From: Candidatus Eiseniibacteriota bacterium
GTDB taxonomy: Bacteria; Eisenbacteria; RBG-16-71-46; JAFGJU01
NCBI GenBank assembly: GCA_020349905.1
Contig: CP070702.1
Span: forward strand, 2,029,743 to 2,067,579
DNA: 37,837 nt
Reading direction: 5' to 3'
Shown here: one piece after another, positions 12,081-29,229 of the stretch
Layout: each line of letters starts with the position of its first letter
Numbering within the stretch: position 1 is the first letter of the stretch
Program-made: the position numbers and the translations under genes
Notes under the pieces: generated by a model
What the model was told of the DNA's origin: nothing
What the model saw: only the letters and a program-made list of their open reading frames with translations
Databases searched by the model: none

Positions 12081-13849
12081 GGCCCACCTCGACTCCCGAC
12101 CCGCGGCGTCACCACCACGGTGCTCTTAAGACTCCGCCTGTCCCCGCCCGGGCCCGCAACGTCCAGGTGCACGATGTAGACGGCGGGAGGAACGAACCGG
12201 CCGTCGCGGTCGGTACCGTCCCAGATGGCCCGAACCACAGTCCCCACCTTCCTGCGGTCGATGAGTCTCCTCACCACTCGCCCGTCACAATCAAAGATCG
12301 TGAAGTTCACCTTCGCCCCGTGTGCGGGAAGGGAAAAGGAGAAGACTACGGTGTCGTCCAGGCCGTCCCCGTCAGGAGAGATAACTCGACTGCTCATCCC
12401 AATCTCGGACGTCCCGCCAGGTCGTAGCGACTCCGCAACGCTGTTGGGGCCGCACGGCGTGGAACCGTCGAGCGACACACTGGAGGACCAGTTGACCGCC
12501 AGCCGGCTGCTCACCCAGGGAGAGACCCGCTCCAGAGAGGCGCCGCTTCGAGTCGACCAGTCCTCCGAGTAGGCCACTACGTCGCTGTGACAGCCGGTGC
12601 TGTCCTTCACGCAGACCACGTCAGCATACTCGCTCCCCCCCGAGGAGTAGTTGTTCAGCGTGATCCACCCTCCCTCTGGTTCCACCACGCGCGACCGACA
12701 TTGCGGATTCTGTTCCAGGAAGAGACCCCTGTCCTGCGTCACCACAACGTACTCCTCGGGACCCAGGGTGAACGTGAGGGGACTCAAGTACGCCCGCTTC
12801 CTGGAGGAGTCCTCAAGCCACCACCCTCTCAAGTCCACGACGGCCCCCGATTTGTTCAAAAGCTCCACCCACTCCGGGCCTCCAGAGGCCGGCGCATACC
12901 TTATCTCGTTCACCACCACGTCCCCCTCTCCGACGCGCACGCAGGAGGCTGCCGCGTCGTTGTAAGGATTCTCGTCTCCCTCCAGCTTAAGCTCCGCCTG
13001 AATGGTCAGGCTCCCCTCCTGCTCCGGTCGCCACTGGACGCAGACACGTTCCGCGCGCTCGCCCGAGATGGCAGGTGCCGCCCTGGAACCCAGAGGCCGG
13101 CGCTCAACGCCGTTGACGCCGAAGAACTCAACCACGCACTCACCGCTCTCGAGCTCGCGCGCCCCGAGGTTTTCTATCTCGACAGCGACTTCCGTTTGCT
13201 CGAACTGGAGAGGGAGAAGAGGATTTGTGCTCAAGCTTCCGGGCACGATGCCCGCGTCCAGGACACACGCGTTGCGCCTGCCCGGGGAGGGAGCCGCGAG
13301 AGGACGAAAGTCCGACGAGTTGTCGTCGGAGTCCGCACCGTCCGGCCACCTGCCCACGCTGCTGCCGGACGGAGCGTCCTCGGCCGGAGCGGTCTCGAAA
13401 TACCCGTAGAACGTGTGCGCTCCCCAGCCGAGGAGGTCCACCACGAAGTCGCCGCTTCTCAATCTGCACGCGTCCGGACCGTTTTGCAGGTCCAGAGGTG
13501 TGACGAAGTCAGGGGGCGGGCTAAGCGCCTCCTCTCCTACAACCACGAAGCCGCCCGGCTCTAAGAAGAAGTCCGAACCCCACTCGAACGCGGGCTTCCA
13601 GTCGTCTTCCTTCGCACCGTTTCCCGTCTCCAACAGGAACCCCTTCAGAGAGACCAGAGAGTCCGTGGAGTTGTAGAGTTCCACGAACTCCAGGCCGTCG
13701 TCCGGACCCTCCGGGTCGTAGAGCACTTCGTTAATCACTACTGCGGGAGAACCCTGGCAATCGTGCGTGCCGGCGAGCAGTGAAGCGAAGACCGAAACGA
13801 AGAAGAACAGAGTGCACGAGACAAGAGAGAAGAGGCCGCCACCCATCAT
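12077..13849 (-). CDS. Secreted surface protein: two lamin tail domains, CARDB-like domain, FlgD-type C-terminal Ig
   Basis: 590 residues. Signal peptide about 1-33. First LTD about 35-195 (VVINEVLYDPEG, LEFVELYNST, SVGRWPDGADSDDNSSDFR). An Ig/CARDB-like linker runs about 200-305 (VAVEIENLGARELESG). The second LTD is about 308-465 (VVVNEIRYAP, PEWVELLNKSGAVVDLRGWWLED). A C-terminal FlgD-like Ig domain spans about 485-585 (SPDGDGLDDTVVFSFSLP, IFDCDGRVVRRLID, WDGTDRDGRFVPPAVYIVHL). Such C-terminal domains often mark exported surface proteins in FCB bacteria. ATG 13849, or the next codon ATG 13846, follows GGGAGG. The gene is 24 bp after the VWA gene and overlaps the OMP gene. Confidence 0.85.
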   Translation of the reverse strand: MMGGGLFSLVSCTLFFFVSVFASLLAGTHDCQGSPAVVINEVLYDPEGPDDGLEFVELYNSTDSLVSLKGFLLETGNGAKEDDWKPAFEWGSDFFLEPGGFVVVGEEALSPPPDFVTPLDLQNGPDACRLRSGDFVVDLLGWGAHTFYGYFETAPAEDAPSGSSVGRWPDGADSDDNSSDFRPLAAPSPGRRNACVLDAGIVPGSLSTNPLLPLQFEQTEVAVEIENLGARELESGECVVEFFGVNGVERRPLGSRAAPAISGERAERVCVQWRPEQEGSLTIQAELKLEGDENPYNDAAASCVRVGEGDVVVNEIRYAPASGGPEWVELLNKSGAVVDLRGWWLEDSSRKRAYLSPLTFTLGPEEYVVVTQDRGLFLEQNPQCRSRVVEPEGGWITLNNYSSGGSEYADVVCVKDSTGCHSDVVAYSEDWSTRSGASLERVSPWVSSRLAVNWSSSVSLDGSTPCGPNSVAESLRPGGTSEIGMSSRVISPDGDGLDDTVVFSFSLPAHGAKVNFTIFDCDGRVVRRLIDRRKVGTVVRAIWDGTDRDGRFVPPAVYIVHLDVAGPGGDRRSLKSTVVVTPRVGSRGGP

Positions 13850-13873
13850 CCACCTCCCGTTCCACCAGGCGAC

Positions 13874-16063
13874 TCAGGGAAGTCCTGAACGTCGCCTCAG
13901 CCACCATTCGAGGGCCATCGACGCTGCGAAGACCGCAAAGAGAAGAGGATGATTCCAGAGCTTGACCTGCCTTTCAACGGTGGCCTTCCGGCCGAAGGAT
14001 TCCAGCTCCAGACGCAACTCATCCACTTCATCCGCCCGAAAGAATTTACCCCCAGAGGCCTCGGAAACGTAGGCAAGGAGTGCGGGGTCCGGGAAAGGAT
14101 CCCCGTGCTCCGGTCCCATCGTGTCCACCACGAACTTGCCGCCGGGAAGGGCGGCCTCGTTCCCGTCCCCGGTCGAGAAACGGTACTGGTACCCACCGGG
14201 GCTCAGAACACCGAAGCTGGTCTCGAACGCGCCCCCTCTTTCCTCAACAGAGATAGGCTCCAGTAGTTCCCCGGCTTCGTTCGTGACCTCGGGGGAAGGT
14301 CCAGGCAGTCCTTCCGAGGCTCTGGCCGTAAACGTCACCTCCTCCCCGTGCTTGAACACCCAGGAAGTAGGTCTCACCTCGCCCACGCGCTCCTGCTCGG
14401 ACTCGGATAGCCACCACATCCCGTTCGACACGAATCTCTCAAAGAGGGTTTCGGAACCACCTGCCGCAGGCAGGGTGAAGTCCCATCTCCAGAGGCCGCT
14501 CGCAGCCACGTGAAGGACCCTGCCCCTGCCGTACTGGCCCGCTACGACGAGCGGAAAGTGCTCCTCTCCCCGGGTCGCCTCGATCAGAACGGAGGAGCCC
14601 TGCTTCGCGGACTCAAGTGAGTGCGCTCCCACGAGGGGAGTCACGTCCTCCCACGCGCGAGCGTTCGAGGACGCCTCTCGTTCGACGTCGCAGATGGGGT
14701 GCCGGGAACCCTCGGACGTGAGACGACAGTTCAGGTATTCCTGACGTCCCCAGAGCTGGGCCTTCCGAATTCGCGCCGGGAGAATGCTGGTAATCGCCGC
14801 CGGCGCCTCGGCCAGTCCTGCGGACCCCAGGACGAACAGCCCTCTCCCTGAACCGACGAAGCTCTCCAGGGCCTTCCACATTCCCGGGCTCATGCGCGCG
14901 GCCGCCCCGTCGTCCAGCAAGACAACAGAGCTCTGCGCGAGCTGCCCAGGAGAGAACTCCACGGGCGGGGGGAAGGTGGGCTGTCTGGCCTTTGTCTCTC
15001 CGTCGGACACCAGGACGAACGTGGGCTCGAGCCTCGGGTCGAATTCCATCTGCCTCTTCAGAAACGTGAAGTCCCAGGACAGGTCTCCCTGGAGATAGAG
15101 GACCTTGAGCTTTTCGCTCATCACGCTCAGCGCGAACGAGGCGGCGTTGTTTACTGCGGAGAGCTCCCCCGTAACAGCCGGGATGCTCACCGAGTAGAAG
15201 TGAATCCCTGCCGAGCGAGGTCTCACGGAAAGCAGGAGCTCGGTCTCCGCCGAGCCGGCGAGCTTCAGCATCCCCCTCGAGACCACCGCCCCTTCTTCGA
15301 AGACCATCACCGGGACCTCCAGATTCTCGAGGCCGTGTCCCTTCACCCGCACCAGCACCGGGACCTCTGCCCCGGCGTAGCCGGAAGCCGGGCACATCAC
15401 TCCTGTTATCTGGACGTCCCTCACTGGGCCCTCCTTGGCCGCAGCCAGGGCGTATACGGGCAGCCTGAGTCTCTTTGCGACCCCGGACGGGTCGGGGCCG
15501 AACGAACTGCTTCCGTCGGACACCAAGACCACCGCTGCCGCGCCTGCGCCCACTTCGGATGCCGCCTTCTCAAGTGCGCTTCCGAGCGCGCTGCGCGCGC
15601 CGGTTGGGCGTTCTGCCGCCTCCTTCAACGTGCCGCCGGGCTGCCTGATGTCGTCGGAAAACAAGAAGACGGAAGTCTCGAATCTTCCCGGAAGTCCCTC
15701 CACCAGACGGCGCGCGGCCCCGGTCGCGACCTCTGCCCTTGTGAGTGAAGAATCCGCTGTCGGGGAAGGGTCAAAGGGCAGGCCCATGCTGGCTGAGTTG
15801 TCCAGCAGAACAAACACCCTGGGCCGTTGCGTCCTGTCAGCTTCCAGGCTCAGGGTCGGACCCAGGAGGGCCAGCAGGACACACAGAAGCGCCAGGGTCC
15901 TCAGGCCAGCGAGCAGCCGCCTCCTCCCGGTGCTGATTCGAGTGCCTCTCTGTGCGTAGACATGCACGGCCAGAAGCACCAGCAGCAGTACGGCCGCAAG
16001 CAGGGTGAACGTGTTAGAGACGGGCGAGAAGTGAAGCCCCTTTATCGAGAAGAGGAGAAACAT
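13874..16063 (-). CDS. VWA-domain membrane protein (BatA/GATase-like family)
   Basis: 729 residues from ATG 16063; an in-frame GTG at 16138 is possible. Two N-terminal membrane helices (about 18-37 and 52-72) precede a von Willebrand A domain with the MIDAS motif DNSASMG (88-94). Next come Ig-like regions (about 250-340), then a GATase-like/ThuA-like region containing VLYLQGDLSWDFTFLKRQ, VVLLDDGAA and the GQYGRGRVLHVAASGLWRWDF block seen in this family. A last Ig-like part and a C-terminal membrane helix (LFAVFAASMALEWWL) end it. Proteins of this layout occur beside MoxR ATPases and in envelope stress loci; no MoxR ATPase is in the window. It is first gene of the operon, with promoters just upstream. 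Confidence 0.85.
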   Translation of the reverse strand: MFLLFSIKGLHFSPVSNTFTLLAAVLLLVLLAVHVYAQRGTRISTGRRRLLAGLRTLALLCVLLALLGPTLSLEADRTQRPRVFVLLDNSASMGLPFDPSPTADSSLTRAEVATGAARRLVEGLPGRFETSVFLFSDDIRQPGGTLKEAAERPTGARSALGSALEKAASEVGAGAAAVVLVSDGSSSFGPDPSGVAKRLRLPVYALAAAKEGPVRDVQITGVMCPASGYAGAEVPVLVRVKGHGLENLEVPVMVFEEGAVVSRGMLKLAGSAETELLLSVRPRSAGIHFYSVSIPAVTGELSAVNNAASFALSVMSEKLKVLYLQGDLSWDFTFLKRQMEFDPRLEPTFVLVSDGETKARQPTFPPPVEFSPGQLAQSSVVLLDDGAAARMSPGMWKALESFVGSGRGLFVLGSAGLAEAPAAITSILPARIRKAQLWGRQEYLNCRLTSEGSRHPICDVEREASSNARAWEDVTPLVGAHSLESAKQGSSVLIEATRGEEHFPLVVAGQYGRGRVLHVAASGLWRWDFTLPAAGGSETLFERFVSNGMWWLSESEQERVGEVRPTSWVFKHGEEVTFTARASEGLPGPSPEVTNEAGELLEPISVEERGGAFETSFGVLSPGGYQYRFSTGDGNEAALPGGKFVVDTMGPEHGDPFPDPALLAYVSEASGGKFFRADEVDELRLELESFGRKATVERQVKLWNHPLLFAVFAASMALEWWLRRRSGLP

Positions 16064-16155
16064 GTCAGAAGACCCACGGCGTCCAGGAACCCTCTCCCGG
16101 ACAAAGAAGAATGCCGGAAGATTCGATGCTGAAGTCACGCTTCCGAGTCAACAAG

Positions 16156-16285: not shown

Positions 16286-16357
16286 AGTCTTCTGAGCAGT
16301 CTTCTGAGCACAGCAGTGTTGGCGTTGCCTCAGAAGAAGGCTAGAGAAGAAGGCTAG
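16286..16357. repeat. Two adjacent tandem duplications at the end of the STAS gene
   Basis: AGTCTTCTGAGC is repeated exactly (16286-16297, 16298-16309), and AGAAGAAGGCTAG is repeated exactly (16332-16344, 16345-16357). The second copy of the latter contains the STAS gene stop (16354-16356), so the unduplicated form would also carry a stop at the same place. Confidence 0.85.
16300..16337 (-). terminator. Hairpin after STAS gene
   Basis: TCTTCTGAG (16300-16308) and CTCAGAAGA (16329-16337) form a perfect 9-bp stem with a 20-nt loop, 16 nt after the stop on the minus strand. The duplicated first arm offers a second choice of partner (from 16288). There is no U-tract. Probable transcript end of the 29-16 kb unit. 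Confidence 0.5.
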
Positions 16358-17388
16358 AACGAATCCGCGTACTGCCTGCGTTTCTCCTTCGTCTCCAGGT
16401 TCAGCCGCTTTAGCTCCAAGAAGAGAGAGAGCGGGTTGATGGGCTTTCGATAGCCCCGTCTGACCAGTTCGGCGCGTATCTTAAGACACCCGAATTCGGG
16501 ATGTTCCTTCACGGTCTCGAGTATCATGGGTTCGATTTCACGGTTCACGGCGCCCGTTCCTATGAGCTGCTGGCCCGCGGGCTCCGGGGTAGTGTTGGCT
16601 CCGGCGAGGGGACGCACCTGCTCGGCGGGCGAGGCCTCTTCCACGACTTCGGCCTTTATCTGCTGTTTCACGTCCGGATTGAGCGGGTCCACGATCTCCA
16701 GCTCCGTCTCGTTGGAGAACTCTTCGGCCGCCTCACGAGAGGGTTCCATCTCCTGCGTGGCCGCTTCAGCGGACTCACCCGTGGGTTCTATCTCCTGGGT
16801 GGCCACTCCTGTCTGGGCCAGAGGCCGGGCTTTGCCAAGGCCCCCGCCTTCAACCGTCTCAGTCTGGTTGGGAGATTGTGAAGTCTGTTCCGGTGACGTC
16901 TCTACGGCCGCGTCGGCGTCGTGTGAAGCCTGCTCCGGGGACGCGTCTCCGGCAGCCCGGGCCTCCACGTCACTCGCGGCTCCGTAAGTGCGAGACCCGG
17001 TACCCGGCGGCGTCTGACCTGCGGCCGGGCGGGGTTGCTCAAATCGCTCGACGGCCTCCTGGATTGTTCGGAAAGACTCCAGGATGTTATGGAATTCCAG
17101 AAGCTCGAACACCTCAGCAACTTCGGGGGTCATTCCCGTGAGCTTCAGGTCGCCGCCGCTTTCTCTGATGCCTCTTATCTCGCTTATGAAGATGCCCCAG
17201 CCGGCGCTGCTGATGTAGGTCACCTTGCTCAGATCTATGACGATGTGGAACTGATGGTCCTTCAGAAGGAACTGCAGACGACGCTCCAGCTCGTGCGAGG
17301 TGGTTGTATCGATCTGGCCCAGCACGCGGACCACGACTATCTGGTAGCGAGAGCCGGCCTGTTCAACTATTACGTCAATGCCCTTCAT
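16354..17388 (-). CDS. STAS-domain anti-sigma-factor-antagonist-like protein with C-terminal transposase-type helix-turn-helix
   Basis: 344 residues. ATG 17388 overlaps the upstream stop (ATGA) and has GGAGGAG about 5 nt upstream, so the longer frame is not used. STAS domain 5-115: IVVVRVLGQIDTTTSHELE, IVIDLSKVTYISSAGWGIF. Ser61 aligns with the phosphorylated serine of SpoIIAA/RsbV, while the usual preceding Asp is Ser60. A long acidic, Gln/Glu/Pro-rich linker (about 118-280) carries repeated ATQE(I/M)EP units. The C-terminal domain (283-344) resembles the second winged-helix of IS481/IS3-type transposases (ETVKEHPEFGCLKIRAELVRRG) and matches the C-terminal domain of the upstream kinase/phosphatase. 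It is the likely substrate of that protein. The HTH fusion is not part of the classic RsbV architecture. Confidence 0.85.
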   Translation of the reverse strand: MKGIDVIVEQAGSRYQIVVVRVLGQIDTTTSHELERRLQFLLKDHQFHIVIDLSKVTYISSAGWGIFISEIRGIRESGGDLKLTGMTPEVAEVFELLEFHNILESFRTIQEAVERFEQPRPAAGQTPPGTGSRTYGAASDVEARAAGDASPEQASHDADAAVETSPEQTSQSPNQTETVEGGGLGKARPLAQTGVATQEIEPTGESAEAATQEMEPSREAAEEFSNETELEIVDPLNPDVKQQIKAEVVEEASPAEQVRPLAGANTTPEPAGQQLIGTGAVNREIEPMILETVKEHPEFGCLKIRAELVRRGYRKPINPLSLFLELKRLNLETKEKRRQYADSF

Positions 17389-19949
17389 TTGGTCTCCTCC
17401 TCCGCTGCCGGGGATTGGGTGGCAGTGAATATCTCCTCCGATTCCTGGCCAGCCTGTGTGTAACCTGTCTCGGAACTCAAACCGGTCTCCTCGCCCTGAC
17501 AAACCGCTTCTTCCACCGGCGCTTCACGACTGCGTCCGGACGAAGAAACGTCAAGATCCATGATCTTTGCGCGCCCTTCTGCAGCAAGCTGCTCTCTCTC
17601 TCGCCTGGTGCTCAGCTTGAGCCTTCTCAGACACGCGTATATCTTCCTGGGCGACACGTCCAGCCCGCCGTACTCGACCTGCTTCAATTGGCGGCTGATG
17701 CGCTTCGGGCCGTAGGCGGGAGATTCACTCACGATCCTGAGTATCCTCTGCTGGACCTCCAGGCTCACCCGTCCGAGCCTTTCCAGGGCCCTCGGAGTTT
17801 TATCCCGCAGCCCGTCCTCTCCCAGCTCGTGCATCCTTCTCCGGTATCTGTAGTACGTGGAGGGAGAGACCTTCATGATCTCGCAGGCCTCGCCCACCGA
17901 AACCCCTTCGCTTTCGACGAGGTCAATGAGCCGCCTCCTGACGTCATATATAATATCGTCAGCAACGGCCTTTTCCTTTATGGCAACCAGCGTGATGTCG
18001 TCGTTCTGCGGTTCTCCCCCAGTGAAGTCCGCCACTTCCCGGTTCAACGTGTCGGCGAACTCCTGGGAGGTCATGTGCCCGTGCTTCTTGATGGCCTTGA
18101 GCAGGCGCTCCTCTCCGAACTGCTCACTGGCCGAGTTCATGGCCTCAGTTATTCCGTCCGTGTAGATCACTAGCATGTCTGACTGCTTGAGCTTGATGGT
18201 CTCGGTCCCGATGGACTTCTCGAAGAGCGAGTGGTCTGCCAGGTCGATGCCCACGGGGAACCCCTTGGGATTGAGGAAGTAGGTCTCGCTTGAGTCACCC
18301 CTGTAGAGGACCATGGGATTGTGCCCGGCGCTTGCGTAGCTTATCACCCTGTGCCTGGAATCCAGCACCACGTAGAAGATGGTAACGAACATGCCCTTCT
18401 TCATGTCCTCCGTGACGAAGCTATTCATCCTGGAGACGACGTCCCTGGCGGACCTGTTGCCCCTGGCCTCCATTCTGAGGGCCGTCCTGATCATTGTCAT
18501 GACGAGCGAGCCGGGCACTCCCTTGCCCGACACGTCTCCGACAACGATGCCGAGCGTGTCGTCGTCCACCCAGACGAAGTCGTAGTAGTCTCCGCCCACC
18601 TCTTTGGCGGCCCTGTAGAGGGTCCCTATCTCGAACCCTTCCGCGTCAGGCACCCTGCCCGGCAACAGGGACTGCTGTATTTCCTGTGCCACCTGCATTT
18701 CCTTCTGCAGACGCTCCTTTTCGACGACGCTGTGCTGCGCCTTGCGGAAGCGCGCGGTTATCTCGTTGAAGGCCCGGGCTATCTCGTCTATCTCGTCCGG
18801 CCCTCCCTCCTCGAGCGTTCTGTCGAGCATTCCTTCCCCGATCGCGCGAACGCCGTCGGAGAGCTTCTGTATGGGCTTGACAAACAGGGAGACGACCGAC
18901 CAGATCGCGAAGCTGCCAACCACAAACACCAGCAGCGCGATGAGCACCATTGCCCTTCTGGCCCTCGCCACGTAGAAACTGATGGAGTCCATCCTTATCT
19001 GTACGTGGACCGTACCCAGCTCCGTTGCAGGAGAGCCTGGCGTGTGTATCACGACGGGTGTCGCGAGGGGGATGAGCGCGTTCCCGGGCTTCTGGCCCTC
19101 GGCCCGAGCTTCGGAGAGGACAGACTCGTATGACCCGAAGAGCTGAGAAGGCTTGCCACTCGCCCAGACGTTGCCCTCCGTGTCAACGACCACGATGCTG
19201 GCTATGTAGGGGGTCTCCTCGAGGGTCCTGGCGATTGTCTCGTTGAGCAGCGTCTGCTCAACCGAAAGAGCCATTCTGGACAGAAGGAGCTCGGTGCTCT
19301 GTCTGGCCATTGCGTTTGCGATGGCCTCTCCCTTCGAGGTGATGTTCTCCACTATCGCCTTCTCCTGGCGCACGCCGAAATAGGAAAAGGCGACCGCGAT
19401 GATGGTGAGCAGGATTCCCGAAGCGTAGACGCTGAACTTGAATCGCAGGCTCTTGTGCCATATCGTCTTTCTCCAGGCAAGAGGAGGACGCTTTCGCTTG
19501 CCCAGGAGGTTTTTTCTCATCGTGAGCACGTTCCCGGCCGGGGTCGCATCGTAATTGACCTCGTCCATGAGCCGGTTCATGAGAAAGAGACCGAGCCCGC
19601 CCTTTCTTCCCGTGGCAACGTAGCGTCTGAGGTCCGGCGTGTGGATCTTCTGAAGTTCGAAGCTCTCTCCCTGGTCGGTCAGCGAGATGGAAAGATGGTT
19701 GGGGCCCGACGTGGAGATGTTGATTTCTATCGAGCCGTCCTTCTCCCTGTAAGCGTGCTTGATTATGTTGGCGCACGCCTCGTCGATGGCCAGTTTCATG
19801 GAGTTGGTGGTCTTTGAGGCGACACCGAGTTCCGCGCAGACTTCGTCAACGAAGTCCCTTATCCTCCCAAGTGACCTCTCGTGCCCCGGCACTTTCAGTT
19901 GGAATGACTTGTCGCTCCTGTCGCCGAAGACCCGTCTTACCAGAGTCAT
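17385..19949 (-). CDS. Membrane kinase-phosphatase fusion: RsbW-like HATPase, sensor, HAMP, SpoIIE/PP2C, transposase-type HTH
   Basis: 854 residues from ATG 19949, one base after the previous stop. N-terminal RsbW/SpoIIAB-like serine-kinase ATPase (1-150): N-box DEACANIIKHAY (56-67), G1 DQGESF (92-97), G2 GGLGLFLM (117-124). TM1 is about 172-192, an extracytoplasmic sensor 193-330 (VVVDTEGNVWASG), TM2 333-356, HAMP/coiled coil 357-430. SpoIIE/RsbU PP2C phosphatase spans 436-657: GGDYYDF (452-458), VGDVSGKGVPGSL (470-482), YTDGITEA (596-603), NDDITLVAI (649-657). Then come two helix-turn-helix units (about 683-720 and 730-785) of the IS481/IS3 transposase N-terminal type and an acidic tail. 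It should both phosphorylate and dephosphorylate the STAS protein encoded next. Domain order and HTH are unusual. Confidence 0.9.
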   Translation of the reverse strand: MTLVRRVFGDRSDKSFQLKVPGHERSLGRIRDFVDEVCAELGVASKTTNSMKLAIDEACANIIKHAYREKDGSIEINISTSGPNHLSISLTDQGESFELQKIHTPDLRRYVATGRKGGLGLFLMNRLMDEVNYDATPAGNVLTMRKNLLGKRKRPPLAWRKTIWHKSLRFKFSVYASGILLTIIAVAFSYFGVRQEKAIVENITSKGEAIANAMARQSTELLLSRMALSVEQTLLNETIARTLEETPYIASIVVVDTEGNVWASGKPSQLFGSYESVLSEARAEGQKPGNALIPLATPVVIHTPGSPATELGTVHVQIRMDSISFYVARARRAMVLIALLVFVVGSFAIWSVVSLFVKPIQKLSDGVRAIGEGMLDRTLEEGGPDEIDEIARAFNEITARFRKAQHSVVEKERLQKEMQVAQEIQQSLLPGRVPDAEGFEIGTLYRAAKEVGGDYYDFVWVDDDTLGIVVGDVSGKGVPGSLVMTMIRTALRMEARGNRSARDVVSRMNSFVTEDMKKGMFVTIFYVVLDSRHRVISYASAGHNPMVLYRGDSSETYFLNPKGFPVGIDLADHSLFEKSIGTETIKLKQSDMLVIYTDGITEAMNSASEQFGEERLLKAIKKHGHMTSQEFADTLNREVADFTGGEPQNDDITLVAIKEKAVADDIIYDVRRRLIDLVESEGVSVGEACEIMKVSPSTYYRYRRRMHELGEDGLRDKTPRALERLGRVSLEVQQRILRIVSESPAYGPKRISRQLKQVEYGGLDVSPRKIYACLRRLKLSTRREREQLAAEGRAKIMDLDVSSSGRSREAPVEEAVCQGEETGLSSETGYTQAGQESEEIFTATQSPAAEEETK

Positions 19950-19950
19950 C

Positions 19951-21924
19951 TCACTGCGCCGTCCTTTCTCCTGAGGAGAGCCTGGCCTTCGCCTTTTCGA
20001 TGTTCTTGGTAACCATTTCATTGTCGGGGTCCATTTCCAGGATCTTCTGCCAGGATTCAATGGCCTTCTCGTATTCGCCGGAGTTGAAGTGATTCATGCC
20101 TTCCACGTACAGCTCTCTTATGTCCTCCTCCACCTTCGGCTTCGGAGGAGAGAGCCTCTCTTCTATTCTTTCGGCAAATCTCAGGGCGTCTTTATCAGCC
20201 GGATAGAGCCGCAGCACCTCGTTCACCATGGCCTTGGCGTCCTGGTAGTCCCCTCTCTCGTAAGCCCTTACAGCCCGCGTGTACAGCCCGAGCGCGTCTA
20301 TCCTGCGCCTGGCTTCTGCCAGGTTCTCATCCATGCTCTCCAGTGACTTCTTCGATTCATCGAGCCCGGCCAGGGCAACCGGGTTGTCGGGTTCAAGCAG
20401 CAGTACCCTGTTCCAGGCAGAGAACGCCTCCAGATGCTTCCCGGATGCGGCAAGCTGTCGCGCCTGCTCGACGCGCGCGCTCACCTCGTTCGAGACGAGC
20501 GAGTCCGCGCGGGATATCCAGGCCGAGACTTCCTGATTCTCCGGCTCCAACCGGCTTGCCTGTCCGAACTTCAAGAGGGCCAGCCTCAGCTCGCCCTGTT
20601 CCAGGAACTCCCTGCCCAGTTCAACCAGGACGTGCACCCTCACCTGGAGCTCCGCCCTTCGCGCCTCTTGCTCTGTCTTCTCGGCCAGGGCTTGTCTGGC
20701 CCTGCCGATGCCCTCGGCCGCCTCCGCGTTGCCCGGCTCATACTCCAGTACCAGGTTCCACTCCTCGAGCGCTGCAGAGTAGCTGCTTTCGGCGAAGGCC
20801 TCGCGCGCGAGCTGCATGTGTGCGTCTATCTTCCTCGACCTTTCCTCTTTCAGCATTCTGGCCACGTCCCGCTGCCGCTCCAGAACCTCGCGCTGCCTCC
20901 TGATGGCCACGGGGTCTCCGAACGCGGCGGAGACAGAGAACTGATGCAGGCTTCCGAGTTCGGTGCTTCCCATCGAATAGTCGAAGCTGTAGTCCCTCCA
21001 TCTGACCCCGGCTCCCGCAGTGAACTTGCCCTCCTTGAGCCCCATTCTGAGCGCCACCAGGTTGTCTATGAGATACTCCCCACCCAGAGACACGGCAGTC
21101 GGGGCCCTTTCCGGAAGGGAAGCATCCGCTGCCAGCGTTACCGCGTCCTGGTTGTCCCTGAAGGCCCCGCGGTATGCCGCGCCGATGCGCACCGTGCGAG
21201 GGGTTCTCTCGACCCTCTCGACCAGCTTAAGCTTGGCCCCCGGCACGTCGCGCAGGGCCAAGCCCAGGGTGAAGCCTTCCAGGTAGGGAATCGGGTACAT
21301 GGCTCCCAGGTCGAAACCGACTCCGCCGGCGCTGTGGTCCCCCATCCTCTCGCTCACTATCTTCAAGGACGCACCCACCCTGACGTCGAACAGTGCCTCC
21401 CGGCCGTAGGAGAAGAGCATCTCGCTCTGCGAGAAATCTATCTCTCCCAGGTGTCTGCTCCTCGAGTCGTAAGCCTGTATTCCGCCCGTTCCAACTCTTA
21501 TGAAGGCGAAGCCGAAACTGCCGAAACGGACCGTGGGCTGGCACACGGAGAAGAAGTCGTAAGAGCTGCCCTCAAACAGAGTGGAGTGAAAGCCTGCGAC
21601 GCTCGTCTGCTCCAGACGCGGAAGCCCAGCAGGGTTCCAGTAGAGCGCGGTCGCGTCATCCGAGACCGCCGTGAACGCCCCGCCCATTCCGAGAGCCCTC
21701 GAGCCTGCCCCCAGAGAGAAGACGCTCTCCGTTCCACCCGAGGCGCTGCTGGCGGCCGTCGCCGGGCAGGTCGCGCCTGCAAGCAGCACAACCGACACCA
21801 GGATCGTCGCAAGCATGTGCGCCGTCCCGAAGCGAAGCCGTCCAGACGCACGCACCGCTCCCTTTCCGGACTGGTCGCCTCTCCCGGCTCTCAGTTTGAA
21901 GCCTCTAGTGTCAGTCACTCTCAT
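19951..21924 (-). CDS. PorV/UPF0164-like outer-membrane protein with C-terminal TPR domain
   Basis: 657 residues. ATG 21924 overlaps the giant gene stop (ATGA). The hydrophobic signal segment (about 37-58, ending TAASS) is preceded by 36 basic residues; an ATG at 21816 would give a normal signal peptide, so the true start may be internal. The PorV-like barrel region (about 62-325) opens with SLGAGSRALGMGGAFTAVSDDATALYWNPAGL, diagnostic for the family. A charged coiled coil (about 335-355) leads to four or five TPR-like helix pairs (358-650; for example YSAALEEWNLVLEYEPGNAEA, YEKAIESWQKILEMDPDNE). In type 9 secretion PorV carries cargo from the translocon to the surface. Here it follows the gene for a FlgD-domain giant, a plausible cargo (inference). 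Confidence 0.85.
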   Translation of the reverse strand: MRVTDTRGFKLRAGRGDQSGKGAVRASGRLRFGTAHMLATILVSVVLLAGATCPATAASSASGGTESVFSLGAGSRALGMGGAFTAVSDDATALYWNPAGLPRLEQTSVAGFHSTLFEGSSYDFFSVCQPTVRFGSFGFAFIRVGTGGIQAYDSRSRHLGEIDFSQSEMLFSYGREALFDVRVGASLKIVSERMGDHSAGGVGFDLGAMYPIPYLEGFTLGLALRDVPGAKLKLVERVERTPRTVRIGAAYRGAFRDNQDAVTLAADASLPERAPTAVSLGGEYLIDNLVALRMGLKEGKFTAGAGVRWRDYSFDYSMGSTELGSLHQFSVSAAFGDPVAIRRQREVLERQRDVARMLKEERSRKIDAHMQLAREAFAESSYSAALEEWNLVLEYEPGNAEAAEGIGRARQALAEKTEQEARRAELQVRVHVLVELGREFLEQGELRLALLKFGQASRLEPENQEVSAWISRADSLVSNEVSARVEQARQLAASGKHLEAFSAWNRVLLLEPDNPVALAGLDESKKSLESMDENLAEARRRIDALGLYTRAVRAYERGDYQDAKAMVNEVLRLYPADKDALRFAERIEERLSPPKPKVEEDIRELYVEGMNHFNSGEYEKAIESWQKILEMDPDNEMVTKNIEKAKARLSSGERTAQ

Positions 21925-24900
21925 TTCGCCACCGCGATCTTAAAAGTCGCGTCCACTCCGTTCGCCTCGAGCTTGCAGATGTAGACCCCGCTCAAGACGA
22001 ACTCTCCCCGCCCGTTCCTGCCGTCCCACTCTATCTCCCTCAATCCTCTTCTGCCCTCCTGGTCCCGGTCCGAGTACGCGACGGAGAAGACCAGCTTCCC
22101 GTCGAGCGTGTATATCTTCAGCGATACTCTCGAATCCTCGTTCAGGTAGTAAGAGATGGCCGTGGATTCCTTGCCGGCTTGAAACGGATTGGGATAGTTG
22201 TGCACGCCCGCAAAAAGCCTGGAAGGAGGCGTCAGGACCCCCTGGAAGCTTCCGCCACCGGGACCCACGACTCCGAGCGCGTTGCCGGAGACGGCGTCAA
22301 AGACGTCGAACGCGGAGGCGTCCTCTATCTCCAGCGCCACTCCACCCACGCGCGGGCTCTGGGAGACGTCCACGGCCACGAGGAGCGTGTCGCTCTGACC
22401 CGTGGCAAGAGTGTCGGCCACCGGAGACAGGTCCACGCGCACGGGGTTAGTCGTGAACCCCGTGGCGATGCCGAGAAGGACGTCGGGCGCGGAATATCTC
22501 GACACTTTCACCGCGGAGAGAGCCGCCGAGGGATCGAGGAGCCTGGCGCTGCCCTCTCCCGTGACGTAGAGCGTGACGCTTCTCAGGCCGATGGGACTGC
22601 CCTCTCCCGTCTCGACGGGATTCTCTATCCGCAGGGCCATGAACCGAACCGACAGCTCGCCGGCAACTACCTGGAGCGGCGGCTCGATCAAGGGCAGCAC
22701 TTCCACGACCATGTCCTTGGACTCTGCGTAGACTCCGATCTCCCTGGTTCGCAGCGAAACGTGGGCCGCAGCGTTTGTGTTCTCGTCGTCTGGAATCCCG
22801 GAGATGGTTGCTGTTATGTACTCTATGGAGGAGTTCACGGACGGAGCCGTCACGTTCCAGCGAACAGGAACTCCGACGGAGAAATCCTGTTCTGCGCTCG
22901 CTCCACCGGAGATGGAATAGCCGGACGGCAGCGACAGGGCCACCCGGCCGCTTCCGGAAACGGCCGCCGTTCCCCCGTTGAGCACCGTGGCCTCCAGAGT
23001 GAATGTCTCTCCCAACCTGAGGCTCCCGTCGGTGGCGGCAGGCGGGGCCACGATGGCCAGAGCAAGAGACAGCGAGGCCCTTTCCACCGTACTCAGGTAG
23101 AGGGACCTGCTTGCGCCCGTGGTGTCCGCCTCCTGCCCAGTGTTGACCGCGCCAGGGAGACGTTCCAGAGATACCAGGAACGCGGAGGAACCCGTGGCGG
23201 AGGCAGGGGAGCTCAGCGACCACTCGACCGGGACTCCCGGAACGAGAGGCTGGGTCGCGGGCGAGAGAAGAACGAAGCCGGCAGGTATGCTTATTCGCAA
23301 CGCACCCGAGCCGTCGAATGCCCCCTCACCCAGATTCGTCACCGCCGCGCCTATCTTGAAGTTCTGTCCTGTTGAAAGCGTTCCGTCCGTCGCACCCTGA
23401 GGTTCTTGCACGAAGGCGTCCAGCGTGAGACGGGCGGGCATTTGTATTGTCACTTCTGTCGTGTCGTCCACCGAAGGGGCAACGGACAGCGGAAGCCCGC
23501 TTATGCCACCTGTGGCAGACTGTATCTGGGCCGTGAACCTCTCCGCGCCCGGGGCGGCTGCCGCCTGAACGGAGATGCTGGCCGCTTCCTTACTCCCTCC
23601 CTGGACGGACTGAATCACGGCTGCGCCGCTGATGAGGGAGCCGCCCGCGGTGGAGAGCTGCACGACCACGTCTCTGGCCTCCTCCTGTCCCAGGTTCTCG
23701 ATCTCCACTCCGACCTGGAAGGTTTGAGACGTGTCCACGTAGGGGGCGTTGGGGGAACTGGAGACCGTGGAATAGACCCTCACGTCTCCTGAGGCGCTGA
23801 CTGTCACGCTATCTGGAGAGGTACCTAGCGTCTGGGAAAAGTAGAACCCGTTCCAATCAGTCCCGGTCACTTCCAGTGACCCGGAATAGGAACCCGCGGC
23901 TATGACGGCACCGTCGATCGTCATGCCCTTAAAAGAGAGCGAGGTGATGCCGTGACCCGCCACGGCGCAACCGCCGGAGCAATCCACCGTGTCGGCCAAC
24001 GCGTCGAGACGGAAAAGACTCGAATCGGCGACAAACAGGGTGGCATCACCAATGTTCTCCACACCCACAGAGAAACTGACGTCCTGCCCCTGAGCCACCA
24101 CGCCGGGCTTGACCGAGCCGTAGAGGTATCTCAAGAGAGCGGGGCTTTGCACCGAAAGCTCGCCCTGCGGCGAGTAGATTGTTCTCTGAAACGGCACGCC
24201 GTTTTCGACCCCTTCCACCGTGGCGTCAACCCTGTAGACCTGGTTCGCCATGGCGGCGTGTACGGTGTCGGACACGAAACTGAGCTGGGCAGTGCTCTGG
24301 GACGCGATCTGAAGGACCGCGCCCTGGCCGCTGGCCAGAAACTCACGCTCCGCGTCTCTGAAGCGAATGTCACAGAGAGCAGGGTCGATGCTGACCGGCG
24401 CGTCTCCGGTGTTGGCCAGCTGCATTGTGAAGGCCGCAACCTGTCCGCGCGTGACCCTGAGAGGACTGAGACTTCCCGCGACCCACTCGAGCGCCGCCCG
24501 TCTCTGAACCAGGATGCTGTCGCTCCCGGTGGCCAGAAGGCTGTCGCGCAGGACTCCGTTTTCCCGCAAGCGCATCAACAGCTCCGGAAGGTAACGGCCG
24601 GTCGTGAACCCCGTGTCTACCTCCGAGGAAGAGAAGCGAAGCACTTGCACCGAGTCCCCCTCGATGGCCAGGGAGTCGGAGAGAAACGCCAGGAAGGTGG
24701 CCGGAGGGCTTCCGAAACTGATACGAGTCTGAGGTTGCACGAAAGCGGTTGCCTGCCCGATGTTTCGTAGCGTCACTTCGAAGGCGGGCTCGTAGCCGGT
24801 GCTCAACGTTTCTGGCTGAACAGCAACGTACTCCAGCACGGCCGGAAGCTGTGCCGTCACGCTGTCCGGGTCACAGTAGAGGGTGTCTGAGAACGAGGCT

Positions 24901-27900
24901 CCGTTCTCGGTTCCACTCAGGAACAGTCCCACGGAGTAAGTGTCCGCGCCGAGTGAAAGTGACACCTGCGCGGCCTCGAACTGAACGCTCGTCTCCCTTG
25001 CGCCGCCCAGCAGAATGGGCGCCGCGAGAGAGGCGACGTATTCCGAGCCCTGAGGACCGAACGCCAGGTATGTTCCCGACGTGTCCAGCGCAACGGGGGC
25101 CGTCCCAGAATTCATTATTCTGGCCGAGAACGAATGGGTTTGCCCGACCGAGACGCTCCGCCTCGAGAGACTTCCGCTAACGTAGGAGAGGACCGCAGGA
25201 CTCTGCACCGACCACGCTGCGGTGCTGTCGGCACCCGAGTCGCTCACCCCTACTCCGGACGCGGAGCCGGACGCGAAGCCGTCGATTGTACACGGCCCCA
25301 GAGGGGCCAACTGGTCCACGTCAACCTCGAATGAGAAGAGACCGATTTCGCCGGCCTGCAGAGTGTCCGGCAGTGCGGGCGAGACCAGAGAGTCGATGTG
25401 GCCGGCGCTGGAAAAAGTGAGTCCCGTCGCCGTTATCTGGAGAGGAACCGATGCCGGGTTCTCGACAGTCATCTGGACGGGCACGTCCCTGCCCCCCCTT
25501 GTCACGCTGCTCTGGGCCAGGACAGTGCGAACCCTTATGGACACAACGCTCACGGTGCTGGTGCCGGCCTGCAGGCTCTGGGTGAAGGAGCTGCCGGCTC
25601 CGTCGTACCCGGTGAGACTGAGAATCGGAGAGTAGGAACCTGCATCAAGCTCCACAGGGACGGCCGTTGCCTGGAACGTGAGAGTCGCTGTGCCTCCTCC
25701 TGCCAGCACGACGACCGTGTCCGGGAGATTGGCCGTGTACGTTCCGTCGTTTCCGTCCTCCAAGGTGAACGCGGAGGATGGAACCAGATACACCCTGCTC
25801 CCGCCGATGTTTCGGACCTGAAGCGAAAACGAGACCACCTGGCCCGGAGCCACTACCGCCGGGGAGATGGAACCGGCCACGTACTGGACCCGCGGCGGGG
25901 AAAGAAGCACGAGCCGGACAGACCCCGCGGCCGTTCCCTGGACCGAGCTTACGCGCACCGTATCGGAGCCCGCGGTGCTGCCCGCTCTGAGGGCAAAGGA
26001 AGCGATCCCGTTGGCAGCGGTGAACACCTGAATGCCCGGGACCACGCTGTCTACGTCGGACGCCACGACCTTGCTCAGGAGGCTGGTTGCAGTGACTTCT
26101 GTACCCGGGCCCACGTTGTTCCCGTAGGCGTCGGTGAAAGGACCGGTCCCGACAAGCACGAACGATGTGCCGTCGGCAGTGAGCGTGTCCTGGACCGGAT
26201 AGACGGACACCGTTCCCGCCGGAAAGGCGGGAGCCAGGCTGATGTTCCCCTTCGAAGCGTCTATCAATGCTCCCTGCGTGTCTTCTGCAAGCAGGGTGAT
26301 GTTCCCTGCGGCCGTGTCGGTCAGCTTGAGTCTGGATTGCGAGCTTCCAGAGACAAGTCTGAGCGAATCCGCGTTCGAGACCGACCAGGACGCCCCTCCG
26401 TCGACCGATATCCTGCCGGTCCCGGAGGAAGACGTGAGTCTCACGAGACTCGTGTCCGAGGTGTCCAAGTTCCCGAAGCTGTCGATGGCCTCGACCGAAA
26501 CGGAGAGAACCGCCGCCGCCGTGTCGGCCAGGGCGGAGGCGGGTAGAATGCGAAGGGCGGTCGCGCCCGCCGGCGTGGACGTTGCGAAGACGTCGGACAC
26601 AGCGTCGTGAGGGACCGTCGTACAGTACGCGTCCATGGTGTCGCTCCGGCCCGAGAACTGGGACGCGCGGTACAGAACGGTGATGACTCCGGAAGCGTCC
26701 GTGTTGCCCGTCTGAATCGAAGCCCCGCCGGAAGTATTGTTAGGATTCGCGGGGTCGTCCTCCAGCGAGCCGTCTGCCGAGTCCTTTATCACGACGCTCG
26801 TCTGTTCCCCGCTTTTCAAGTTTCCAAAGCTGTCTCTCACCGTTGCGCTCAAGACCTGGGTGCCCCCGGCGTTCACGTTGAAAGACCCTCCGGGCGCGAT
26901 GACGACGCTGGCCGCGCTCCCGGCCACGACCTGAAGCCCGCCAGAGTCACCGTCTATCTGTGGCTGCGAGGTGTCGGCCGCAGAAAGGGTGTGCACGCCG
27001 CTGGTGGTTAGCCGTAGAGAGCCCGCCAGCCTCTGAAACCCGCTGTCGGCGGCAACAAACTGGTAGTAAGGGGGAAGCACGGTGCTGTCTCCCGCGTCAG
27101 TACAGGAGAAGCCCACGACCCCCGTGTAGCCGGTGGCTCTGTTTCCGTAGACGTCCCTGCCCTCCACGTCCACGTCCAGCCAGCTTCCGGCAGGGGCCCA
27201 GCTCGCCGAGGCGGTCAGCACGAGCGCGTCACAGGCCGAGGCGACGACGGTTATGCCTCCCTGGCTGCCGTTCACGGACGGCTGCAGGGCGTCGGTGGCA
27301 ATCACGGACTGCTCGCCTGAGGTGGTGAGCGTGACGGAGAGAGGAAAGACGTGCCGCCCGCTGTCCGAGACCGCGAACGTGTAGTCGGGAGGAAGAATTG
27401 TCTGGGGATTTCCGTCCGTGCTGGAAAACTGCACGGTCCCCGTATAGTCCTTCACCCTGTTTCCGTGCGCGTCGTTCACGGCCACCACAACGTCGCTCAC
27501 GGTGCCTGCGATGACCGGGTCAGTGACACCCGACACGTCGAGCGCAGCGGCGGACGAATGGTCAACCACGACGTAGGCGGTTTCGACCGGAAAGGTCGGC
27601 GCGTTCGTGTCTGCGTCCATCACGGCGACGAGGAACTCAGAGGCGTTCGTATCGTAGTAGTCGAAATATGCCCGGGAGCTGTCCGCGGGCATCTGAACGT
27701 CGAATATCTGTACCGCTCCCTCGCGCTGCCTGAATATCCCGCTCGGCGAATTGGTCCACAGGAAGAGCGTCTGGGAAAGAGACACGGGAGAGACGTTTCC
27801 GTATACGTCCCTGGACAGGACGGTGAAGGTGCCCTGCGAGCCTGCCTCCAGAAACAAGGTGTCCGGGACCAGATCCAGCACGGAAGGCGGCGCGGCAGAG

Positions 27901-29048
27901 ATAACCGTGGGAGCGGGACCGAAGTCCAGAATCCCCGCGTTCAAGGTATCTACTGCCCTGACGTAGATGGCCTCCGCGACGGTGTAGACTTCCGTGGCGG
28001 TTCCGACGCCTGCGGCCAGGGACAGAGTGGTATCGGAGAGACTCCCCGCTGCCCGCGTGGTGCCGAGTGAATCCAGCCAGGCGCTCAGCCAGAGACCCGC
28101 GTCGCTGCCCGGCCCGGAGGTGACAACGTTTCCGTCCGCGTCCAGTGCGGCCACAGAGACCTGGAAGGCTGCCCCGGCCACTGCGCTGCCCGGCTGCGCG
28201 ACGTCCAGCCTGGAATAGGACCCGTGGGTGACTGTGACAACGCCCGTGGAGTCAATGTGGCCGAAGTCGTCCTCTGCGATTACGTAGCCGGTGCCCACGG
28301 TGGTCGCATCGAACGTGTTCGTGGAGTCCTTGCCTCCGCTGAGTGTTCCGATGCCTGCGCTCAGGCTCCACGTGCAGGCGACGCCCCCCGTGGGGTTACC
28401 GTACGCGTCTTCGCCCCTCACTGAGAAGACATTCGAATTGTCGTCAGCCGTAAATGCCAGGTCTCCCGCTTCGCTTCCGGCGAAGTATACAGTCACGTCC
28501 ACCGCAGTTCCTGCGACAACGTTGACCGTGGGAGAGCCGGAAGTGAGCGCTTGAGGAGACGTCCCGTCCGGGTCGCTTTTCACCGTAAACTCTACGGAGT
28601 CCTGGGCGACCGTTTGAGTCCTCGCGAAGGCGGAAGAGGCCCCGTAGATGACCTCCACGTACTCTCCGTTCCTGAAGATCTTGAAGAACTTGCCCCCAAG
28701 ATAGAGGCGGATGGTCTGGCCGGACACTGTCACTGAATCGAGGTCGTCCGCGTCACCAGCCATTGCCCGCACAAATCCTGCCTGCACGGAGTCTGACACC
28801 TGAGGAGCACTCCATCCCACAGGGATGTCAACGCTGACCATCCCTCCGAGCCAGTCGAAGTCCTCCGTCGCGGTGTATCTTATCGTCCAGCGGTTGTACG
28901 TGCCTGCCTGGGGGTCTATCACGGGCCACATCTGGGCGGTGCCGCTTCCCGGTCCGGCCAGGGCGGTGCCGGCGGCGGCCCAGAGAAGGAACGCCGAAAT
29001 GACGAGGAAGCGAACTCTGATTGAGGCTCTAAAGTGAGTGCTTCCCAT
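21921..29048 (-). CDS. Giant secreted multi-domain Ig/CARDB surface protein with FlgD-type C-terminal domain
   Basis: 2375 residues. Signal peptide 1-31 (LLWAAAGTALA). The N-terminal third (about 180-1080) is a series of Big_1/invasin-like Ig units marked by D-x-YGN/D-x-FGN motifs (EDAYGNP, RDVYGNVS, NDAHGNRVKDYTG, RDSFGNL). About 1080-1700 holds six repeats of ~115 residues with the theme PAxLxYVxGSLSPxxVxxGQ...FSxxVxNxG. Three CARDB-like domains follow. The last ~95 residues form a FlgD/T9SS-A-like domain starting HNYPNPFQAG and containing IYTLDGKLVFS and EIEWDGRNGRGE. Cysteines are very scarce, as in surface fibres. It is first gene of the signalling unit. The role is probably adhesion or envelope layer; no enzyme domain is seen. 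The start codon has only a weak ribosome site. Confidence 0.88.
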   Translation of the reverse strand: MGSTHFRASIRVRFLVISAFLLWAAAGTALAGPGSGTAQMWPVIDPQAGTYNRWTIRYTATEDFDWLGGMVSVDIPVGWSAPQVSDSVQAGFVRAMAGDADDLDSVTVSGQTIRLYLGGKFFKIFRNGEYVEVIYGASSAFARTQTVAQDSVEFTVKSDPDGTSPQALTSGSPTVNVVAGTAVDVTVYFAGSEAGDLAFTADDNSNVFSVRGEDAYGNPTGGVACTWSLSAGIGTLSGGKDSTNTFDATTVGTGYVIAEDDFGHIDSTGVVTVTHGSYSRLDVAQPGSAVAGAAFQVSVAALDADGNVVTSGPGSDAGLWLSAWLDSLGTTRAAGSLSDTTLSLAAGVGTATEVYTVAEAIYVRAVDTLNAGILDFGPAPTVISAAPPSVLDLVPDTLFLEAGSQGTFTVLSRDVYGNVSPVSLSQTLFLWTNSPSGIFRQREGAVQIFDVQMPADSSRAYFDYYDTNASEFLVAVMDADTNAPTFPVETAYVVVDHSSAAALDVSGVTDPVIAGTVSDVVVAVNDAHGNRVKDYTGTVQFSSTDGNPQTILPPDYTFAVSDSGRHVFPLSVTLTTSGEQSVIATDALQPSVNGSQGGITVVASACDALVLTASASWAPAGSWLDVDVEGRDVYGNRATGYTGVVGFSCTDAGDSTVLPPYYQFVAADSGFQRLAGSLRLTTSGVHTLSAADTSQPQIDGDSGGLQVVAGSAASVVIAPGGSFNVNAGGTQVLSATVRDSFGNLKSGEQTSVVIKDSADGSLEDDPANPNNTSGGASIQTGNTDASGVITVLYRASQFSGRSDTMDAYCTTVPHDAVSDVFATSTPAGATALRILPASALADTAAAVLSVSVEAIDSFGNLDTSDTSLVRLTSSSGTGRISVDGGASWSVSNADSLRLVSGSSQSRLKLTDTAAGNITLLAEDTQGALIDASKGNISLAPAFPAGTVSVYPVQDTLTADGTSFVLVGTGPFTDAYGNNVGPGTEVTATSLLSKVVASDVDSVVPGIQVFTAANGIASFALRAGSTAGSDTVRVSSVQGTAAGSVRLVLLSPPRVQYVAGSISPAVVAPGQVVSFSLQVRNIGGSRVYLVPSSAFTLEDGNDGTYTANLPDTVVVLAGGGTATLTFQATAVPVELDAGSYSPILSLTGYDGAGSSFTQSLQAGTSTVSVVSIRVRTVLAQSSVTRGGRDVPVQMTVENPASVPLQITATGLTFSSAGHIDSLVSPALPDTLQAGEIGLFSFEVDVDQLAPLGPCTIDGFASGSASGVGVSDSGADSTAAWSVQSPAVLSYVSGSLSRRSVSVGQTHSFSARIMNSGTAPVALDTSGTYLAFGPQGSEYVASLAAPILLGGARETSVQFEAAQVSLSLGADTYSVGLFLSGTENGASFSDTLYCDPDSVTAQLPAVLEYVAVQPETLSTGYEPAFEVTLRNIGQATAFVQPQTRISFGSPPATFLAFLSDSLAIEGDSVQVLRFSSSEVDTGFTTGRYLPELLMRLRENGVLRDSLLATGSDSILVQRRAALEWVAGSLSPLRVTRGQVAAFTMQLANTGDAPVSIDPALCDIRFRDAEREFLASGQGAVLQIASQSTAQLSFVSDTVHAAMANQVYRVDATVEGVENGVPFQRTIYSPQGELSVQSPALLRYLYGSVKPGVVAQGQDVSFSVGVENIGDATLFVADSSLFRLDALADTVDCSGGCAVAGHGITSLSFKGMTIDGAVIAAGSYSGSLEVTGTDWNGFYFSQTLGTSPDSVTVSASGDVRVYSTVSSSPNAPYVDTSQTFQVGVEIENLGQEEARDVVVQLSTAGGSLISGAAVIQSVQGGSKEAASISVQAAAAPGAERFTAQIQSATGGISGLPLSVAPSVDDTTEVTIQMPARLTLDAFVQEPQGATDGTLSTGQNFKIGAAVTNLGEGAFDGSGALRISIPAGFVLLSPATQPLVPGVPVEWSLSSPASATGSSAFLVSLERLPGAVNTGQEADTTGASRSLYLSTVERASLSLALAIVAPPAATDGSLRLGETFTLEATVLNGGTAAVSGSGRVALSLPSGYSISGGASAEQDFSVGVPVRWNVTAPSVNSSIEYITATISGIPDDENTNAAAHVSLRTREIGVYAESKDMVVEVLPLIEPPLQVVAGELSVRFMALRIENPVETGEGSPIGLRSVTLYVTGEGSARLLDPSAALSAVKVSRYSAPDVLLGIATGFTTNPVRVDLSPVADTLATGQSDTLLVAVDVSQSPRVGGVALEIEDASAFDVFDAVSGNALGVVGPGGGSFQGVLTPPSRLFAGVHNYPNPFQAGKESTAISYYLNEDSRVSLKIYTLDGKLVFSVAYSDRDQEGRRGLREIEWDGRNGRGEFVLSGVYICKLEANGVDATFKIAVAK

Positions 29049-29119: not shown

Positions 29120-29229
29120 GCATTTCGGTTTGAAAACAAAGGACTTCTAGCGACGAAACTGAGGTTGCAACAAGCATGCCACGGAGGGGGGCGCCCGGAG
29201 GCGCGGGCGGAGGCCGCGGGCGAGGAACT

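Follow-up and report, generated by a model that had tools for sequence, protein, structure and literature searches.

The module described here joins a membrane-bound kinase/phosphatase to a substrate of the STAS type, and both partners end in helix-turn-helix (HTH) domains of the transposase type. It lies in a stretch of 37,837 nucleotides, hereafter the window, from Candidatus Eiseniibacteriota bacterium (assembly GCA_020349905.1, contig CP070702.1, positions 2,029,743 to 2,067,579), in which the 854-residue enzyme, counted from its ATG (17385..19949), is followed by the 344-residue STAS-linker-HTH protein (16354..17388). Coordinates are those of the window, and all the features given with them lie on its minus strand. 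Our preferred reading, to which we give close to an even chance, is that of a partner-switching module in which transposase-type DNA-binding domains have taken the place of a sigma factor as the output. Most likely, phosphorylation of the STAS protein controls how its own HTH and those of the enzyme meet DNA, to which both are presumed to bind. The output of a partner-switching module is usually taken to be a sigma factor, and where no such factor is present it is often unclear what the module controls. In this case the proteins themselves carry a candidate output, which is conserved across several phyla and is thus directly testable.

Two partners with related tails

Both genes were delimited by open reading frames and start calls, and the enzyme was further dissected with Pfam, NCBIfam and hydropathy. 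The frame of the enzyme is open as far as 20060 and its start is the ATG at 19949, whereas its stop is overlapped by the ATG of the STAS gene at 17388. From its N-terminus the enzyme comprises an RsbW-type kinase domain (HATPase_c_2, 19512..19880, Pfam E=2e-28), a membrane span, a weak Cache-like sensor, a second membrane span, a HAMP domain (18750..18887, E=4e-11), a SpoIIE/PP2C phosphatase domain (17976..18566, E=1e-51) and two HTH units, HTH1 and HTH2; the three domain matches exceed their Pfam cut-offs. The membrane spans appear as hydropathy peaks at residues ~170-194 and ~325-360. Between them the putative periplasmic sensor (19107..19367) resembles sCache_3_2 with a score below the cut-off (E=6e-5, 23.5 bits vs 28.4). 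Among ten orthologs, E57 and N61 of the kinase N-box and D92, G94, G118 and G120 of its G boxes are invariant, as are the metal-site aspartates D454, D472, D598 and D650/D651 of the phosphatase.

The partner protein begins with a STAS domain of the anti-sigma-antagonist type (17041..17388; Pfam E=1e-19, NCBIfam ant_ant_sig above cut-off), in which Ser61, within YISSAGWG, is the predicted phosphosite and is invariant in nine orthologs. A variable linker leads to the C-terminal HTH (16363..16545), assigned by profile-profile comparison, Pfam matches of orthologs and AlphaFold. In two Eisenbacteria genomes the STAS gene seems broken, inside the STAS domain at L035:7851-8523 and inside the tail at L038:13586-14245, by assembly error or real loss.

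An original prediction, made from the letters of the window, held that the enzyme ends in two HTH units at about residues 683-785, that the STAS protein ends in one, and that the two tails share a residue pattern. All of this is borne out. The enzyme tail contains HTH1, of the HTH_28/29 type (17805..17951), and HTH2, of the HTH_32/HTH_21 type (17583..17765), which together span about residues 671-800 in the 854-residue numbering, slightly more than proposed. HTH_28, HTH_29 and HTH_32 score above their Pfam cut-offs and HTH_21 below. Pfam by itself does not recognize the window's STAS tail, which has diverged too far (HTH_21 E=0.095), and the tail was reached through its orthologs, since all eight Eisenbacteria STAS tails match HTH_21 (best 8e-6). 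AlphaFold predicts two three-helix HTHs in the enzyme tail, with a predicted local distance difference test (pLDDT) of ~90 or more across most of the cores, and a single three-helix unit in the STAS tail (pLDDT ~80-86) with the helix spacing of enzyme HTH2. When the enzyme tail was compared with the whole 2.69-Mb genome, it matched only itself and the STAS tail, the latter with E=3e-4 as a single sequence and 1.1e-7 as a profile. In profile-profile comparison the STAS tail aligns with enzyme HTH2 at E=1e-13 for close relatives and 3.5e-16 for a wide set, and HTH1 is without counterpart in the STAS protein. Chance or low-complexity similarity is ruled out by these genome-wide and profile-profile comparisons.

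The tails are also of transposase type, as had been proposed. All 59 enzyme tails tested match the NCBIfam model transpos_IS481 (NF033577), the tail of the window with E=1.7e-21 and the full enzyme with E=3e-20, and HTH1 and HTH2 cover positions 2-115 of its 284; the IS3, IS630 and ISNCY models rank after it. In a comparison with 47 genomes of the phylum, the longest hits from proteins that do not belong to the family are three DDE transposases, identified as such by reading their sequences, two of which (L174, L160) align over both HTH units and one (L162) over part. The remaining matches are mostly short frames of ~100 residues, and the one that was read (L161) precedes an IS3-type transposase frame. 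A DDE core, which the original prediction had declared absent, is indeed missing: Pfam finds no rve match in either protein, and no room is left after the HTHs. Foldseek returned, all of them weakly, the tandem-HTH DNA binders TnsB and the paired domains of Pax6 and Pax5, with SETMAR lower in the ranking, and a sequence search of the PDB with both tails gave no convincing match. That the tails bind DNA is predicted from their fold and homology, and the transfer would have run from transposase to signalling protein.

The tails are conserved and under purifying selection. We compared relatives by the Nei-Gojobori ratio of nonsynonymous to synonymous differences per site (pN/pS), and the ranges that follow are those of the five closer pairs. 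The STAS-HTH gave 0.12-0.29 in four pairs and 0.54 in the remaining one, whereas the linker next to it gave 0.56-0.81 and the STAS domain 0.10-0.14; within the enzyme, HTH1 gave 0.17-0.44, HTH2 0.35-0.56 and the SpoIIE domain 0.03-0.17. The most distant pair, the window against family f4, has higher ratios throughout (STAS-HTH 0.90, STAS 0.42) and was set aside because its synonymous sites are near saturation. Tails without an HTH match, or poorly conserved tails beside a linked sigma gene, are therefore not what we find.

Spread of the module and its linkage to sigma factors

The same architecture, for which the original prediction had suggested a search of related genomes, is widespread. Of three genomes in the window's own family, two encode a full-length relative, as do all nine genomes sampled from family f4, and none was found in the other sampled families of its class. 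Besides the window, the genome collection holds 80 further loci with relatives of the enzyme, labelled Eisenbacteria, Krumholzibacteriota, Latescibacterota, KSB1, Calditrichota, FCPU426, Firestonebacteria, Goldbacteria and others, some of these labels being doubtful because the genomes are metagenome bins. Given the same architecture in so many loci and a conserved gene order, a local, recent transposon insertion is ruled out, and the conservation of that order over phyla argues against mobility of the module. The recruitment of the transposase-type module is ancient, common to several phyla, and not local.

Domain scans covered 79 of the 80 loci. In 36 the enzyme carries HTH1 and HTH2 and a separate STAS protein carries a tail, and in 19 an HTH-bearing enzyme has one, two or three STAS domains in the same chain, and such separate STAS proteins as were seen there are tail-less. 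The HTHs are kept with no STAS seen in the locus, sometimes cut by a contig end, in another 10. Nine Goldbacteria-like loci have no adjacent STAS, an undetected HTH1 and a weak or undetected HTH2; two show HTH1 only, the tail being cut or masked. The last three combine HTHs with a tail-less separate STAS protein (L070 and L088, both cut by contig ends, and L072), L072 being the one real exception to the presence of a tail on a separate STAS protein. The STAS tails group together, with 99/94 support, in a tree of the HTH2 units, so that within the resolution of 65 columns the tail has a single origin.

The lineages differ in what surrounds the enzyme. Loci of the Krumholzibacteriota type (L047-L052, L055-L062, L069, L074, L098, L107, L115) have up to three STAS domains after the enzyme HTHs, and in Krumholzibacteriota the enzyme is often followed by a ParA-like ATPase, a tetratricopeptide repeat (TPR) protein and two tail-less STAS proteins. 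In many enzymes of the KSB1/Calditrichota type (L076-L104, L111, L114, L118-L122, L124) the HTHs are followed by a long, acidic linker and by TPR-like sequence, and obg-like and dprA-like genes often lie downstream. In Goldbacteria-like loci (L105, L106, L108, L109, L110, L112, L113, L116, L123) the enzyme sits between a PorV gene and his-type genes.

On sigma factors the original prediction, which held them to be absent, stands for the conserved neighbourhood and fails for the genome. No sigma gene adjoins the module in ~85 loci (1.09 Mb), where only three matches were found, kilobases away, with a model trained on nine of the genome's own sigma matches and controlled solely on those training sequences. 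The genome itself has 14 matches to sigma-70 region 2, the nearest ~22 kb from the module and on the opposite strand, and it encodes RpoN. It also contains, at 0.96 Mb (L179, G000:C1:960444-961536), a classical cluster of an RsbW-like protein of 174 residues, a STAS protein of 103 and a sigma factor of 178, all of them tail-less, which serves as a natural control in the same genome.

The surface-protein operon

Over several phyla the module usually closes a conserved order of genes: giant surface protein, PorV/TPR protein, enzyme, STAS protein. In the window the second of these is a PorV/PorQ-family outer-membrane protein with C-terminal TPRs (19951..21924; NCBIfam PorV_fam, 115 bits vs cut-off 90), whose cluster is present in 72 of the compared loci. 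The first is a giant protein of 2375 residues with a C-terminal type A sorting domain of the type IX secretion system (21921..29048; TIGR04183, 28.6 bits vs cut-off 23), whose cluster is present in 54. Matches to SprA_N indicate an SprA-like translocon in the genome. With a PorV-family protein, a type IX sorting domain and an SprA-like protein, the locus has the features of one associated with type IX secretion, and export of the giant protein is predicted.

Upstream of the giant gene lies a candidate sigma-54-type -24/-12 promoter, TGGCATGCTTGTTGC (29167..29181), that follows the pattern TGGCAYN5TTGC. It was spotted by reading the upstream regions of seven Eisenbacteria genomes, in all of which the pattern occurs once per upstream sequence on the coding strand (0.2 expected per window); a k-mer comparison of the same regions gave little above shuffles. 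In the whole genome the pattern occurs 23 times, against 9 for a reversed control. Given the conserved pattern and the presence of RpoN, the operon is probably sigma-54 dependent in Eisenbacteria. No match was found beside the operon in other phyla, where one complete chromosome was checked and the start of the giant gene reads N.

A TTGCA...TGCAA-like element stands ~120-130 bp before the sigma-54 promoter, at similar distance in six loci (L180, L181, L182, L183, L184, L186), and is a possible activator site. The TTGCA/TGCAA element was seen by eye in the other Eisenbacteria family; under a strict test for inverted repeats it held up in just one genome, and it is not claimed. Downstream of the module (12077-16138), a membrane protein of 754 residues without Pfam match and a protein with a lamin-tail domain are encoded; the former is related to a protein that follows the module in Krumholzibacteriota (cluster 7).

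Possible outputs and known relatives

How might such a module work? An envelope signal, probably tied to the PorV and giant-protein surface system of the same operon, would set the balance between kinase and phosphatase, with Ser61 of the STAS domain as the phosphorylation site. Unphosphorylated STAS-HTH might be held at the membrane by the kinase domain and released when phosphorylated, or the reverse. STAS-HTH would then bind DNA next to or together with the tandem HTH of the enzyme, which would act as a membrane-tethered DNA contact, and transcription would change; plausible targets are the module's own operon and other surface genes. In its fullest form the proposal is tentative, and we consider it possible rather than probable: a transposase-derived bipartite DNA-binding module, split over a membrane kinase/phosphatase and its STAS substrate, in which serine phosphorylation decides whether the two halves meet on DNA, and which, with no sigma factor of its own, would switch genes of PorV/type IX-like surface proteins in response to the envelope in several candidate phyla. 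The module also looks like a case in which bacterial signalling proteins took up a transposase DNA-binding region long ago, and it offers a possible regulator of PorV/type IX-like surface systems in organisms other than Bacteroidota.

Several observations weigh against a DNA-binding output. No HTH operator was found upstream of the operon, where the search gave the sigma-54 promoter, and the Foldseek E-values all exceed 0.1. In KSB1-type genomes the enzyme HTHs are close to neutral, and the recognition-helix region of the STAS tail is often aromatic (GWF), both of which would suit protein contacts. Likewise, a STAS protein encoded separately has the tail and one joined to the enzyme in cis goes with its absence, a pattern that fits a tether equally. 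The last three points favor a serious rival, on balance unlikely, in which the HTH folds have lost DNA binding and serve as docking devices that bring STAS to the kinase/phosphatase, for instance through contact between the STAS tail and enzyme HTH2, where conserved acidic residues stand at positions at which the STAS tail is basic. In favor of DNA binding, the STAS tails are basic in most lineages, with a mean net charge of +7.9 in KSB1-like and +9.2 in FCPU-like genomes and only +2.6 in Eisenbacteria. Docking alone, however, does not account for the fused lineage, whose enzyme keeps both HTHs well conserved (mean pairwise identity 78% for HTH1 and 65% for HTH2) and basic (net charge ~+5 each) with no STAS tail to bind, so that the role of the enzyme HTHs needs no partner tail; nor does it account for HTH1, to which nothing in the STAS protein corresponds. 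Moreover, in SpoIIE/RsbU phosphatases it is loops of the catalytic domain that recognize the STAS substrate (PMC11418112); thus a tail is not needed for that purpose in Bacillus. DNA output and docking may both hold, since the tails may meet on the same DNA.

Rather improbable, in our estimate, is a function like that of SypE/SypA, in which STAS phosphorylation would act after transcription, on how the giant PorV-linked surface protein is assembled or exported, and the HTHs would be secondary. The gene order kept over several phyla speaks for it, as does the TPR-like C-terminus of KSB1-type enzymes, which, read from sequence, resembles that of the PorV-type neighbor; yet it leaves the conserved tandem HTH of the enzyme and the HTH of the STAS protein without a reason. 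It is quite unlikely that the module is an ordinary partner switch acting on a sigma factor from another part of the genome, for example by cross-talk with the cluster at 0.96 Mb: although the genome offers that cluster and 14 matches to sigma-70 region 2, no sigma gene adjoins the module in any of the ~85 loci, the nearest match in the genome is distant and on the other strand, kinase, phosphatase and membrane sensor are parts of one protein, and the tails would stay unexplained. Least of all do we expect the tails to be functionless leftovers of a transposase fusion, a view that the fading HTHs of the Goldbacteria-like genomes without adjacent STAS would suit, and that was already made unlikely by tails conserved across phyla, with pN/pS below that of the linker and all 59 enzyme tails tested still recognized by the IS481 model.

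As in the RsbU-RsbW-RsbV and SpoIIE-SpoIIAB-SpoIIAA systems of Bacillus, there is an RsbW-type kinase, a SpoIIE-type phosphatase and a STAS substrate with an invariant serine; unlike them, the module unites both activities in a single membrane protein, lacks a linked sigma factor and bears transposase-type HTHs on both partners. By its features it appears to be a partner switch, but the sigma output fails as far as linkage can tell. In a review of STAS-only proteins the words DNA-binding and fused do not occur (PMC8256260), and searches on these domains among openly licensed papers yielded no title or abstract on HTH-tailed STAS or SpoIIE proteins, which does not prove that none exists. SypE-SypA of Vibrio fischeri is similar in having an N-terminal serine kinase and a C-terminal serine phosphatase in one protein, a STAS partner and a locus for a surface structure. 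SypE has a central response-regulator (REC) domain (PMC3610818), whereas our enzyme gives no REC match and has instead two membrane spans, a Cache-like region and HAMP, and C-terminal HTHs, and its STAS partner carries an HTH as well. SiaA-type SpoIIE phosphatases are the best NCBIfam match of the enzyme, over its HAMP-SpoIIE part (residues 333-657), but with 83 bits against a cut-off of 700, and with the N-terminal RsbW kinase and the HTH tail outside the match.

With IS481 transposases, and also those of IS3, IS630 and ISNCY, the enzyme tail shares the tandem HTH in the same order and over the same profile positions, whereas the module is without DDE core, fused to signalling domains and conserved with its operon. 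A precedent in kind is SETMAR, together with other domesticated transposase DNA-binding domains, in which a transposase DNA-binding module was joined to an unrelated enzyme (PMC6326780). SETMAR arose in animals ~50 million years ago; unlike it, the module described here is bacterial, common to several phyla, and split over a kinase/phosphatase and its substrate.

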